NCBI RefSeq assembly: GCF_030295975.1
Contig: NZ_AP027364.1
Coordinates: forward strand, 744,001 to 808,000
Length of the DNA: 64,000 bases
Direction: 5' to 3'
From: Thalassotalea atypica
Lineage (GTDB): Bacteria > Pseudomonadota > Gammaproteobacteria > Enterobacterales > Alteromonadaceae
The position numbers and the translations under genes are program-made. The notes beneath the pieces are model-generated. The model was not told where the DNA came from, ran no database searches, and worked only from the letters and a program-made list of their open reading frames with translations. Below are positions 8,809-14,214 of this stretch, one piece after another (position 1 is the first letter of the stretch; each line of letters begins with the position of its first letter).

Positions 8809-9486
8809 CTAATTAACTTGGAAGTACCGTGATACATTAAACTGAAATTTAGCTTTATATTCTGGAAACTGTTTTTCCGAATTCTCTATCACAGCAGGTA
8901 AGTCGACACTCGTATCCAGCATGTGCTTTTCTATTGACTCTGGCATAGGAGCTGAAATAGAAGCGATGAACACACCTTCGTGTTTCATTAGCCAATAAAA
9001 ATTTACTATACGCTCTGTGCTAGGAAAGATAGTAAGTGAAGTCGAGCCACTAAAGTAGTCTTCGCTGCCATTTTTGTTAATGGAAATAGGATTTAGCTTA
9101 GTAATAGGATCCAATTTGTGCCTATGTCCATCTTGGTCTTCACTTTCAATAAAACTTACTGCTGCTATTTTTAACGCATATCCGCACCAATCTAAGGTAT
9201 GGGTAGAAGAACTCTGGTTTTCAATTTTAACCTCGATGAAAACAGGGGTTCCTGAATTTGTTTTTTCTCCCAAGATAATAGACATGTCACCTTTAAGTCC
9301 TTTCTTTTGGTTAACCTCAACTTGTTTCTGAATTGATTCTGCTTTTTGTTTTTTCAATTCATCTGTGGCAAAAAGTCTGAATACTGCCCAAATGCCTGCC
9401 ATTATGGTTGCTAAACTTATGAATATTGCCTGTGTAGCTTGCGCAAGGCTCTTTATCTCCGCTGAGTGTTTTATTAAATCTTCCAT
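8809..9486 (-). CDS. Unknown membrane-anchored protein
   Basis: A 225-residue protein that I do not recognise. It has one likely transmembrane helix at about 18-40 (AIFISLATIMAGIWAVFRLF), then a charged, Lys/Gln-rich segment likely to be helical (about 44-64). A beta-rich domain of about 150 residues follows (VFIEVKIENQSSSTHTLDWCG; LTIFPSTERIVNFYW). The pattern of strands and the phrase VKIENQSSS recall immunoglobulin-like folds of membrane-tethered domains, which is only a guess. It sits alone between convergent and divergent neighbours, which fits accessory content. Confidence 0.6.
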   Translation of the reverse strand: MEDLIKHSAEIKSLAQATQAIFISLATIMAGIWAVFRLFATDELKKQKAESIQKQVEVNQKKGLKGDMSIILGEKTNSGTPVFIEVKIENQSSSTHTLDWCGYALKIAAVSFIESEDQDGHRHKLDPITKLNPISINKNGSEDYFSGSTSLTIFPSTERIVNFYWLMKHEGVFIASISAPMPESIEKHMLDTSVDLPAVIENSEKQFPEYKAKFQFNVSRYFQVN

Positions 9487-9788: not shown

Positions 9789-12098
9789 ATGTTGACGCTT
9801 AATGATATCCAGCCTCAGAAAAATGAAATATATTTAGATAATAACGCTACAACGCCAGTGCTACCGCAGGCCGCCGAAGCTGCCATGCATACCATGCAAC
9901 TGTGTTACGGTAATCCAAGTAGTAGCCATATCACTGGCTTGAAAGCCAAGTATATTTTAGAGACAACAAGAAGCCTCGTGCGCAAGGTTATCGGTGCAAC
10001 GTCCGGTGGTATTACATTTACCAGTGGCGCAACAGAAGGCATACAAACAGCAATTATTTCAGCATTGAACGCGGCGCGTGAAAAGGGTATCAGCCAAAAA
10101 AATCCATTATTACTATATGGCGCAACAGAGCACAAAGCGGTGCCTGAAACGTTAAAGCACTGGAATGCCATGTTGAATATTGGCGCAGAAGTATTAGCCA
10201 TTCCAGTTGATGAAAACGGTATTTTAGATGTTGAATTTATTAAATTACACATCGCCGACGCCTTGGTTATTTGTACTATGGCGGCGAATAATGAAACCGG
10301 AGTGTTTCAAGATTTAGATTTATTGGAATCAGTGATTCGTAATGGCAATAAAGACGTATTATGGATGGTGGATTGTGTGCAGGCGTTAGGTAAATTGAGC
10401 CTAAATATTTCAGAGACTACCATTGATTATGCACCGTTTAGTGGTCATAAATTATATGCGCCTAAGGGAATTGGCGTTTTATATGTTAGAGAAAACGCTC
10501 CATTTACACCGTTTATTGCTGGCGGTGGTCAAGAAAGTGGCCTACGCTCTGGCACCGAAAACTTACCAGGTATTGCTGCGCTGCACGCGATTTTAAGCTT
10601 ACTTGATAGTGAACATGACGACACTTTCAAAGATCATGAAACGTTAGTGCGTTACCGTCAACAAATGTTCGACACATTAACGGAAGTCTTCCCTGATATT
10701 ATCTTTAACCATGATTTCAAATATTCCTTACCGACGACGTTAAATTTTTCGGTTAAAGGGCTATCAAGTAAAGAAATCATGGATTTGTTTGATGCAGCTC
10801 GAATTCGTGTTAGCTCTGGCTCTGCTTGTTCGTCAAAAGTGACTGGCAGCTTTGTTCTTGATGCCATGGGTAAGCCTAAATGGCAAAGCGAAGGGGCAAT
10901 TCGAATGTCCTTTGGCCCAGCAACGACACAGCAAGAAATTGATCAAGCGTGTCAAGCAATCAAACAAGCAGTTAAAGCACTGCATCACAGTTGTTTAATG
11001 CTGTCTGATACTCATGATACCAGTGAGTTTGGCGTAGATGGATTACAGCAGTGGGTCTATGATCAGCAATGTACTTGGTGTTATGTTGATAAAGCCGCTA
11101 AAGAGTGTGTGGTTATCGATGTGGTGCCTGAATTAGTCAACAAATTTGAAAAGCTAGTGAAGTGCCAAGGTTACAAAGTAATTGCTGTACTTGACTCACA
11201 CCGTCATGAACATCAAGTATTAACCCCTGAAATGGTCAGAGAGTTAATACCCGAGCATATAGCTGCAGGTCATTTCAATTTATTGGGTTGGCCAGCAGAA
11301 AGTAAGATTGTGCGGTTAGCTAATGGGCAGCAAGTCCCAGCTATTACAGTGGGTGGCAAAATATTGGCTCAATTGCCTATTCCGGGACATACCGAAAATA
11401 GTGTCGCGTATTTACTGGGTGAAATCGATGGAGATGATTTGCTTGCTGAAAATGTTGATTATGTGTTTGTTGGCGACTCGATTCAAATTGGCGGTTTAGG
11501 CAGAACAGATTTAGCACAAAGTAACGCCCAATCAATGTATGAATCTTTACAAACCCTTAATGGTACAGTGATTGATTCAACACTTATTTGTCCGAGCCAT
11601 GACTATCAATCACTGTTTAGTACGAGCTTGGCGATGGAGAAAAAAACCAACCCACTATTAAATGGTGTGTTGAATCAATCTCTGTCAGTTGAAGAGTTTA
11701 CCAAGCAAAAAGTTAGCATTGATCAACAGCTACCTGAGTCTGAAAACCCTTGTTTTTGTGGGCAAATATCATTCTCTAGTGATGAAATAGGAAATTTAGC
11801 CCCTAATGAGTTAGAAAGTTTTATGGTTAAACACCCTAAAGCGACGGTGGTAGATGTACGAGAAGTGCACGAGTACGAGGCGTATCCTGAAGCTTATGTC
11901 GCAGGAAAACAATTAGTGAATGTACCCTTGTCACAGTTAACGGAATTTGTTCATAACTTCCAACACAGTAATGACGATCATGAGTTTATTTGTATTTGTC
12001 GTAGTGGTAATCGCAGTGACGCAGCCGCAAAAGTATTAAAACGAAATGGCTTTGCAAAAGTTTATCATGTGCCAGGTGGATTTGCGCTGTTGAGTTAA
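9789..12098 (+). CDS. Three-domain sulfur enzyme: cysteine desulfurase + persulfide-dioxygenase-like MBL + rhodanese
   Basis: A 769-residue fusion. Residues 1-400 are a class V aminotransferase of the NifS/IscS type: LDNNATTPV start, H115 in ATEHKAV, PLP lysine K221 in SGHKLYAPKGIG, and catalytic C347 in SSGSACSSK. Residues 415-645 are a metallo-beta-lactamase fold of the ETHE1/persulfide dioxygenase type: SHRHEH (first His H471), PGHTENS (H534), VGDSIQIGGLGRTDL (D563) and CPSHDY. These match the mononuclear iron triad of ETHE1, while the usual HxHxDH is altered. Residues 672-769 are a rhodanese with loop CRSGNRS (C737). The three sites could take sulfur from cysteine, pass it as persulfide and oxidise it to sulfite. 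ATG 9789 has AGAAGAAG upstream; a TTG at 9759 is an alternative start. Confidence 0.88.
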   Translation: MLTLNDIQPQKNEIYLDNNATTPVLPQAAEAAMHTMQLCYGNPSSSHITGLKAKYILETTRSLVRKVIGATSGGITFTSGATEGIQTAIISALNAAREKGISQKNPLLLYGATEHKAVPETLKHWNAMLNIGAEVLAIPVDENGILDVEFIKLHIADALVICTMAANNETGVFQDLDLLESVIRNGNKDVLWMVDCVQALGKLSLNISETTIDYAPFSGHKLYAPKGIGVLYVRENAPFTPFIAGGGQESGLRSGTENLPGIAALHAILSLLDSEHDDTFKDHETLVRYRQQMFDTLTEVFPDIIFNHDFKYSLPTTLNFSVKGLSSKEIMDLFDAARIRVSSGSACSSKVTGSFVLDAMGKPKWQSEGAIRMSFGPATTQQEIDQACQAIKQAVKALHHSCLMLSDTHDTSEFGVDGLQQWVYDQQCTWCYVDKAAKECVVIDVVPELVNKFEKLVKCQGYKVIAVLDSHRHEHQVLTPEMVRELIPEHIAAGHFNLLGWPAESKIVRLANGQQVPAITVGGKILAQLPIPGHTENSVAYLLGEIDGDDLLAENVDYVFVGDSIQIGGLGRTDLAQSNAQSMYESLQTLNGTVIDSTLICPSHDYQSLFSTSLAMEKKTNPLLNGVLNQSLSVEEFTKQKVSIDQQLPESENPCFCGQISFSSDEIGNLAPNELESFMVKHPKATVVDVREVHEYEAYPEAYVAGKQLVNVPLSQLTEFVHNFQHSNDDHEFICICRSGNRSDAAAKVLKRNGFAKVYHVPGGFALLS

Positions 12099-12231: not shown

Positions 12232-12852
12232 TTATTGATTTAGTAAAGTGTTAAACACGGAATAAGCCACTAAAACCATAATCAAACCAACGAGTATATC
12301 TATTCCCCGCTGTACTTTAGGGTGCCCTAACCACGGCGCCATTTTTGCTGCACTTAGTGCCAAGCTATAAAACCAAAGAATGGAAGCCAACATTGTACCA
12401 ATGGCAAATGCCAATCGTTCATTACCGTCAAAAGTGCCACCCACGCTGCCGAGTATCATAACCGTGTCCAAATAAACGTGAGGATTCAATAGCGTAACTG
12501 CTAAAGTGGTTCCGATGATTTTCTTACGGTTATTGGCCGCTTTTAATTGGCCAGCCTGTTGGTATTGGTTTTGCCATGCATTTTTAAAAGCAATTGAAGC
12601 GTAAACTGTTAAAAAGAGAATACCGCCCCAGCCAATAGCGAGCATTAAATATTCATGGCTGGCAATTAATTTTCCACCTCCAAATATGCCTAAGCCGATT
12701 AAAATTACGTCGCAGACCATACAAATAGTTGCTGCTAATATATGGTGATTGCGTTTAATGCCCTGACTAAGGACATAAGAGTTTTGAGCACCGATAGGAA
12801 TGATCATTCCGGCTCCTAAAATGAGCCCTTGAAGCATCGCAGTAAAAGACAT
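12232..12852 (-). CDS. argO: LysE/ArgO family amino acid exporter
   Basis: A 206-residue inner-membrane protein with about six hydrophobic helices and the family start GLILGAGMIIPIGAQNSYVL, which is the LysE/ArgO signature. ArgO exports arginine (and LysE lysine) when intracellular levels rise. The divergent LysR regulator next door is the usual arrangement for argO/argP-like pairs in gammaproteobacteria, which supports the call. Whether arginine or lysine is the preferred substrate cannot be read from the sequence. Confidence 0.88.
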   Translation of the reverse strand: MSFTAMLQGLILGAGMIIPIGAQNSYVLSQGIKRNHHILAATICMVCDVILIGLGIFGGGKLIASHEYLMLAIGWGGILFLTVYASIAFKNAWQNQYQQAGQLKAANNRKKIIGTTLAVTLLNPHVYLDTVMILGSVGGTFDGNERLAFAIGTMLASILWFYSLALSAAKMAPWLGHPKVQRGIDILVGLIMVLVAYSVFNTLLNQ

Positions 12853-12876
12853 CGCCTTTCCTTATGAATAGAAAAC

Positions 12877-12958
12877 AATGTTGGGTAATATAGTTCCCTT
12901 CTTGTCATAAATATAATTAATTAAAATTATTAATCATAAGTTATACTAATGTTGGGTA
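12877..12958. promoter_or_regulatory. argO-argP intergenic region with an 11-bp direct repeat
   Basis: AATGTTGGGTA occurs at 12877-12887 and again at 12948-12958, on either side of a very AT-rich core. TATACT at 12942-12947 could be the -10 of the regulator gene. The repeats are candidates for LysR-type binding sites; this is inference. Confidence 0.4.
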
Positions 12959-12977
12959 TGAATTACATGAGTCGTCA

Positions 12978-13883
12978 ATGAGTAAGCTAGATTACAAATT
13001 ACTAGAAGCACTGAGCGCGGTAATTAAAGATCAGAGTTTTGAACGTGCTGCTGGCACTTTGTGCATCACTCAATCTGCTGTGTCGCAACGCATAAAAGCA
13101 CTCGAGCAGCAGCTTGCGCAACCGGTTTTGATCAGAAGCCAACCAATAAAAACGACGAAGCTAGGCAAGCAATTATTAAGGCATTACTATCAAGTTGTGC
13201 AGTTGGAGGCAGACTTAATGCCGCAAGTCATGCCGGACACACCTGAATCACCGCTGACTTTACATATCGCCACCAATGCAGACAGTTTAGCCACTTGGCT
13301 GATCCCAGCAATTGCGCCAATAATTAAACAACATTTGATTGAAGTAAACCTGTTGATTGCTGATGAAACTCACACCGTCGATATGCTAAGAGACGGCCAA
13401 GCATTTGGCGCAATTGGCAGTCAAAATACACCGGTGAAAGGATGCCAACTGACAGAACTAGGTGAATTAGATTATATCTTAGTGGCGTCACCAGAGTTTA
13501 TTGAACGATATTTTTCCGAAGGAATTAATAAACACAGCTTACGGCAAGCACCGGGTATAGCATTTGATCACAAAGATAATATGCACATTCGCTTTGTTCA
13601 TGAACATTTTGGGTTATCTGAAGGAGATTATCCGCTTCACGCGGTGCGTTCATCTGAAGCTTTTGTTGCAATGGCAAAACATGGTGCAGCCTATTGCTTG
13701 ATTGCAGAGTTACAAATACAAGAAGAACTTGCAAAAGGGGAGTTGGTGCACATCTTTAAACAAGCAAAAATTACTGAAAGCTTGTATTGGCACCACTGGG
13801 TTCTATTAAAAGGCATATACAAAAAAATATCTAACGCTATTATTTCTCATGGTCGACAGGTGTTAGGGACTCCAAATGTTTAA
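12978..13883 (+). CDS. argP: LysR family regulator ArgP (IciA)
   Basis: A 301-residue LysR-type regulator. The N-terminal winged helix-turn-helix is seen as FERAAGTLCITQSAVSQRIKALEQQLAQPVLIR (positions about 20-53; motif AVSQRIKALE). The effector domain follows, with the Asn-Ala-Asp LHIATNADSLATWLIPA stretch typical of ArgP. ArgP senses arginine and lysine and activates argO. The divergent argO partner supports the name. The last bases overlap the start of a 42-residue small ORF by 8 bases, which suggests translational coupling. Confidence 0.88.
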   Translation: MSKLDYKLLEALSAVIKDQSFERAAGTLCITQSAVSQRIKALEQQLAQPVLIRSQPIKTTKLGKQLLRHYYQVVQLEADLMPQVMPDTPESPLTLHIATNADSLATWLIPAIAPIIKQHLIEVNLLIADETHTVDMLRDGQAFGAIGSQNTPVKGCQLTELGELDYILVASPEFIERYFSEGINKHSLRQAPGIAFDHKDNMHIRFVHEHFGLSEGDYPLHAVRSSEAFVAMAKHGAAYCLIAELQIQEELAKGELVHIFKQAKITESLYWHHWVLLKGIYKKISNAIISHGRQVLGTPNV

Positions 13884-14013: not shown

Positions 14014-14214
14014 ATGAGCTTAAAGTGGACAGACTCGTTGGAAATCGCGCTTGACTTGATAGAAGAACACCCTGATGTAGACCCAATGCAATTACACTTT
14101 CCAGAACTGATGAAATGGGTACTTGCACTTGAACGCTTTGATGATGATCCAACCCATTGTGGTGAGCGCGTATTAGAAGCAATACAACTAGCATGGATCG
14201 CTGAAGCGGACTAA
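14014..14214 (+). CDS. iscX: Fe-S cluster assembly protein IscX
   Basis: A 66-residue acidic protein of the IscX (YfhJ) family: LKWTDSLEIALDLIEEHPD, then a D-rich FDDDPTHCGERVLEAIQLAW end. IscX binds IscS and iron and modulates Fe-S cluster assembly. In E. coli it is the last gene of the isc operon; here it stands apart from isc genes, behind argP and a small ORF. A strong GGGGGA ribosome binding site precedes the ATG. Confidence 0.92.
   Translation: MSLKWTDSLEIALDLIEEHPDVDPMQLHFPELMKWVLALERFDDDPTHCGERVLEAIQLAWIAEAD

Follow-up and report, generated by a model that had tools for sequence, protein, structure and literature searches.

Natural fusions of a cysteine desulfurase with a rhodanese are known from CD-Rhd of Pseudorhodoferax sp. 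Leaf274, a PLP homodimer with both cysteine desulfurase and thiosulfate transferase activities, in which sulfur has been demonstrated to pass from C334 to C466 and then to a thiol, and which was the most efficient desulfurase among those compared in its study (PMC8931425). It is already in use as the cysteine biosensor CyReB (PMC12319549). Persulfide dioxygenases (PDOs) have likewise been found joined to sulfurtransferase domains, as in the BpPRF/PpPDO fusion (5ve3-5ve5), CstB of S. aureus and Blh (DUF442-PDO). In the window, the stretch of 64,000 nucleotides of Thalassotalea atypica analysed here, a single gene encodes a desulfurase, a PDO-like metallo-beta-lactamase (MBL) domain and a rhodanese in one chain. 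The literature that we searched, with most subscription journals outside its scope, holds no published description of this three-domain form and no desulfurase joined to a PDO-rhodanese, in agreement with the first-pass annotation.

The window protein shows the CD-Rhd pattern of desulfurase and rhodanese on one chain, and CD-Rhd is similarly a natural single chain with an N-terminal group I desulfurase and a C-terminal rhodanese. However, CD-Rhd lacks the MBL and measures 54 kDa with its cysteines at C334/C466, as against C347/C737 in 769 aa here. The joining of desulfurase and rhodanese is therefore already known from CD-Rhd, and the intervening MBL is what differs. BpPRF/PpPDO, the closest solved structure, shares the order MBL then rhodanese and an aligned cysteine of the CG motif, but it has nothing N-terminal to the MBL where the window protein carries a desulfurase of ~400 residues, its HxHxDH motif is complete, and its GSH-contact Arg and Lys are missing from the present family. 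CstB and Blh resemble the window protein in the joining of a persulfide dioxygenase to a sulfurtransferase domain, but their partner domains are others, they contain no desulfurase and the similarity is weak (25.2 bits to the Blh NCBIfam model, cut-off 625).

Architecture and active sites of the fusion protein

The coding sequence starts with ATG, contains no internal stop and is preceded by a AGAAGAAG stretch located 8-15 nt 5' of the start codon. The three domains reported earlier on one 769-residue chain were verified in an intact frame and in the same order, with K221, C347, H471, H534, D563 and C737 all confirmed under the same numbering (Table 1). AlphaFold2 modelling on the family alignment resulted in three confident domains, with mean pLDDT values of 86 over the full chain and 88.9 over its MBL-rhodanese half. 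A full-chain search for the three-domain order identified homologues in more than 90 Alteromonadales species. An origin of the frame by misassembly, or by a frameshift that fused separate genes, has a negligible probability: no supporting evidence was found, the identical architecture recurs at 48-74% identity in those >90 species, and the desulfurase domains form one clade (SH-aLRT 100). Recurrence over such distances can be due neither to chance nor to a sequencing join, and the architecture is real and conserved.

Table 1. Features of the fusion gene and of the nearby iscX gene in the window.
Feature	Position	Strand	Basis
Whole CDS, desulfurase - MBL (PDO-like) - rhodanese, 769 aa	9789..12098	+	ORF with translation; same-length homologues
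Group I (NifS/IscS-like) cysteine desulfurase domain, residues 14-400	9828..10988	+	Pfam Aminotran_5; TIGR03402; 1ecx structural match
K221, PLP lysine	10449..10451	+	Invariant, 105/105 and 71/71 aligned members
C347, desulfurase catalytic cysteine, long loop SSGSACSS	10827..10829	+	Invariant, 105/105 and 71/71
ETHE1/PRF-like MBL domain, ~residues 418-645	11040..11723	+	Alignment to solved PDOs; fold match
H471, first iron-ligand position	11199..11201	+	Solved-PDO alignment; kept in 99/105 members
H475-Q476, replacing Asp-His of HxHxDH (AcPDO D61-H62)	11211..11216	+	Alignment
H534, second iron-ligand position	11388..11390	+	Alignment
D563, third iron-ligand position	11475..11477	+	Alignment
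C657 of CG motif, aligned with PRF CG cysteine	11757..11759	+	In all 99 triad-bearing members
Rhodanese domain, ~residues 672-766	11802..12086	+	Pfam Rhodanese 41.9 bits, cut-off 22.2
C737, rhodanese catalytic cysteine (CRSGNR, 737-742)	11997..11999	+	Invariant, 105/105 and 71/71
iscX, partnership with fusion putative	14014..14214	+	Adjoins in most Thalassotalea loci and one other family (L050)

The host genome is 4.39 Mb in size and its closest named relatives belong to Thalassotalea. Of 40 related genomes, 9 carry a full-length homologue (52-74% identity) and a tenth (G017) has a reduced form. Across the order, 44 of 395 genomes are positive, three of these with a reduced MBL, and full-length homologues lie in at least 80 named loci of Shewanella, Pseudoalteromonas, Colwellia, Paraglaciecola, Rheinheimera, Thalassotalea, Ferrimonas and others (one locus is cut by a contig end). 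The idea of a family confined to Alteromonadales was dropped, since the same desulfurase family was found (E <= 4e-70) in 106 of 294 genomes sampled from the family f213, taken to be Burkholderiaceae from their genome type and the CD-Rhd precedent. A class-wide spread sample (~366 members, roughly one per family) had yielded no member. One copy, from a genome recorded as Marinobacter nauticus DP3N21-5 (L046), is sister with full support to that of Ferrimonas balearica DP5N7-5 (L058), which reflects either a transfer or a mislabelled genome.

The N-terminal domain matches Pfam Aminotran_5 over residues 14-386 (3e-60), and NifS-like 1ecx is the top Foldseek match of the whole-chain model (TM 0.92 to target). 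With the PLP lysine and a catalytic cysteine in a long mobile loop, it has the features of a group I desulfurase. It shares the group I fold with IscS and NifS, together with the lysine and the long loop, yet by the NCBIfam equivalog cut-offs it is an orthologue of neither (NifS model TIGR03402, 293.8 bits, cut-off 530.75; IscS model, 239.5 bits, cut-off 643.2). It is ~33-38% identical to these enzymes and lies in a separate, fully supported clade: in our tree the fused desulfurases are separated from 25 stand-alone ones by a branch with SH-aLRT 100, which fits a single origin of the family. At the other end of the chain, the rhodanese carries the CxxGxR active-site loop and its Pfam match (residues 674-765, 1.4e-10) scores above the cut-off.

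The middle segment gave no Pfam match at 1e-3. Its relation to PRF proteins was nevertheless borne out by both sequence and fold, BpPRF being the best match in each: the solved PDOs align with it at 3e-21 (BpPRF, over residues 423-765), 5.5e-20 (MxPDO, 4ysb) and 5.9e-14 (hETHE1), and the best Foldseek matches of the MBL-rhodanese half are 5ve3, 5ve4 and 5ve5. Rigid-body superposition of this half on BpPRF leaves an rmsd of ~16 A across the domain pair, probably owing to a different placement of the domains relative to each other, and the match should therefore be read for each domain separately. By homology and MBL fold the segment is of the ETHE1 type, and its residues predict a 2-His-1-Asp iron triad.

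In the PDO of A. caldus (AcPDO), the iron ligands and R139, D141, H171, D61 and H62 matter for activity; D61A and H62A each abolish detectable activity, and R139A and D141A retain 0.4 and 1.5% (PMC6060420). The window protein keeps the equivalents of R139, D141 and H171 (R572, D574, H604), as well as Y606 and C657, but the second-sphere Asp-His pair is replaced by H475 and Q476. The earlier description of the domain, with its iron triad kept and its HxHxDH motif changed, therefore stands, while persulfide oxidation by this chain is not supported as proposed, since H475 and Q476 occupy positions at which AcPDO tolerates no alanine. Dioxygenation by the window protein is hence doubtful, the MBL being most likely weak or inactive, although the loss of the pair could be offset locally by the retained R572/D574, H604, Y606 and C657. 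The GSH-contact Arg of AcPDO (R190) is L623 in the window protein and Leu in 95 of 105 members; the type II PDO of P. putida likewise lacks the equivalent Arg (PMC6060420). If any member oxidises persulfide, its substrate is then probably not bound in the manner of GSSH, and delivery of a persulfide along the chain would fit the absence of this residue.

Decay and probable deletion of the MBL domain across the family

Conservation was counted over 105 distinct aligned members, over a second alignment of 71 members and over 33 f213 members. K221, C347 and C737 are invariant in every aligned member of both alignments. Among the 105, 77 have a complete MBL motif with the Asp-His pair, 22 (the window protein included) keep just the iron triad and 6 have a dead MBL. 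The triad-only class includes the Thalassotalea clade that contains the window protein and the P. lipolytica group, except L030 and L032, two close Thalassotalea relatives (73-74% identity) which have Gln at 471 and Tyr at 534, so that two iron ligands are gone, and in which the C657 equivalent is Gln. In three others (L134, L135 and L027, the last of only 604 aa) the metal site is absent. W501 and D605 are invariant in all 105, dead MBLs included. Column 574 (AcPDO D141) holds Asn in most full-MBL members and Asp in canonical PDOs and in the window clade, and even the complete class thus departs from known PDOs.

In the f213 sample the MBL is dead in 21 of the 33 and absent in 12 (510-541 aa), with the desulfurase and rhodanese cysteines present in all. 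The MBL is the dispensable part of the family and the desulfurase and rhodanese residues are its constant part. The MBL-less proteins are of the CD-Rhd size class and fall inside the three-domain clade of the desulfurase tree; their desulfurase cysteine is located at 338-360 and the rhodanese cysteine 140-153 residues further, compared with a spacing of 132 in CD-Rhd. From its size, cysteine spacing and taxonomy, Pseudorhodoferax CD-Rhd likely belongs to this family.

On the unrooted desulfurase tree, the distribution of full and not-full MBLs needs at least four changes and that of MBL absence needs four, two being forced by well supported branches in each case. Since the motif is common to ETHE1 and PRF, these changes on an unrooted tree are read as losses rather than gains. 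dN/dS of the dead and triad-only MBLs is ~0.05-0.2 in close pairs (~0.05 for the dead pair L030/L032), and in almost every clade the MBL evolves faster than the other domains (MBL/desulfurase distance ratio 1.7-2.5). Relaxed selection was rejected as an explanation of the decay, because the high rate extends beyond the decayed clades and dN/dS is low. The purifying selection makes a retained non-oxidising role likelier than free decay, except where the domain has been deleted.

We propose, tentatively, that the ancestor may have held a complete cysteine-to-sulfite pathway on one chain and that its dioxygenase was inactivated or removed in place several times, leaving CD-Rhd relays. The window protein could then be a living intermediate, whose triad-bearing MBL has taken on a new non-oxidising role.

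Gene neighbourhood and proposed function

The neighbours of the fusion gene differ between lineages. A divergent DecR/CyuR-like gene of the Lrp family lies beside 29 of the 33 f213 copies and beside the Psychrobium-type copies (L063, L092, L125); its product is 44-48% identical to E. coli DecR as against 35-37% to Lrp. DecR (CyuR) is described as activating the cyuPA operon in a cysteine-dependent manner (PMC11408624). This neighbour points to cysteine-induced cysteine breakdown and is the strongest context evidence, in line with the link to cysteine handling suggested earlier. Neither the window gene nor other Thalassotalea copies adjoin a DecR-like gene. In two lineages, putative sulfite exporters of the TauE/SafE family adjoin some of the full-MBL copies, as would be expected if sulfite is produced there; the window contains neither such an exporter nor a DecR-like gene.

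The window protein is probably a relay from cysteine desulfurase to rhodanese, with a PDO-derived MBL placed between them that is weak or inactive here. The catalytic steps are deduced from what is known of these enzyme families. PLP on K221 would desulfurate L-cysteine to alanine and leave a persulfide on C347, from which the mobile loop would carry the sulfane sulfur to the rhodanese cysteine C737, and this would pass it to either a target protein or a small thiol. Desulfuration of cysteine with sulfur transfer to the rhodanese is the most likely conserved function of the family, this relay part being very likely, with disposal or redistribution of cysteine sulfur as its likely role. In full-MBL members a further step on the chain could convert the persulfide to sulfite, and dioxygenation by this class is plausible. 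The MBL of the window protein, with the triad, R572, D574, H604 and C657 kept and the second-sphere pair lost, may serve mainly in structure, persulfide binding or gating.

The first-pass annotation had instead proposed an oxidation or detoxification enzyme in which all three domains are active, turning cysteine into alanine and sulfite and passing on a second sulfur. The retained iron triad, the CG cysteine of every triad-bearing member, the position of BpPRF as the closest solved relative, the TauE/SafE genes beside full-MBL members and the cysteine-type regulator beside relatives all speak for it. We consider it unlikely, however, since the Asp-His pair is His-Gln at positions essential in AcPDO and the GSH-contact residues are not conserved, and the genome encodes a separate PDO-like MBL of ~292 aa. 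Its desulfurase-to-rhodanese relay is supported, with a precedent in Pseudorhodoferax CD-Rhd; its sulfite step is not supported as proposed, as two close relatives lack two iron ligands and many distant ones lack the domain.

A role as specialised sulfur donor to Fe-S or thiolation targets, linked to IscX, TusA or Nqr and with an MBL that would dock the acceptor, appears improbable. Contrary to the earlier statement that no other sulfur genes are nearby, iscX lies close to the fusion gene in the window, and it adjoins the fusion in Thalassotalea and, in another family, a full-MBL copy (L050). IscX, a protein of Fe-S assembly, binds IscS. A TusA-like gene occurs near the P. lipolytica group copies and an nqr cluster beside L027, L134 and L135; these TusA-like, iscX and nqr adjacencies involve reduced-MBL copies apart from L050, amount to few independent cases and were noticed post hoc. 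Each link is limited to one lineage, however, and a normal IscS is encoded elsewhere in the genome. A partnership with IscX was dropped because the two genes are neighbours only within particular lineages and because fusion-less Thalassotalea genomes also have iscX outside the isc operon; some that bear the fusion have no iscX. The genome encodes, besides IscS and the ~292-aa MBL, two further desulfurases, and the fusion is thus not its sole enzyme of either kind.

With the relay as the preferred reading, one family holds active-looking, triad-only, dead and deleted forms of a dioxygenase between the same two conserved sulfur-transfer domains, and it allows a direct test of how the flow of cysteine sulfur is directed either into sulfite formation or towards acceptors. 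The very fast desulfurase CD-Rhd gains a likely origin, and the family a likely cysteine-responsive regulator.

Several further features of the loci were observed. In the window genome iscX is separated from the isc operon, with iscS ~300 kb away; the same separation occurs in several other genomes of the genus and family, whether or not they carry the fusion. Between the fusion gene and iscX lie a LysE-type exporter (Pfam LysE) and a divergent LysR-type regulator, an ArgO/ArgP-like pair (12232-13883) present at this place only in the window genome among the compared relatives. A 225-aa minus-strand ORF with no Pfam match (8809-9486) is divergent to the fusion. Three small genomes from the same family have a fusion gene, its MBL dead or a remnant, that directly follows the nqr operon with nqrM or an apbE-like gene (L027, 7729-15884; L134; L135). 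About ten Shewanella loci (L040, 7200-7733, and others) carry an upstream gene in the same orientation, whose product has a signal-peptide-like N-terminus and a DSP-PTPase-like domain.
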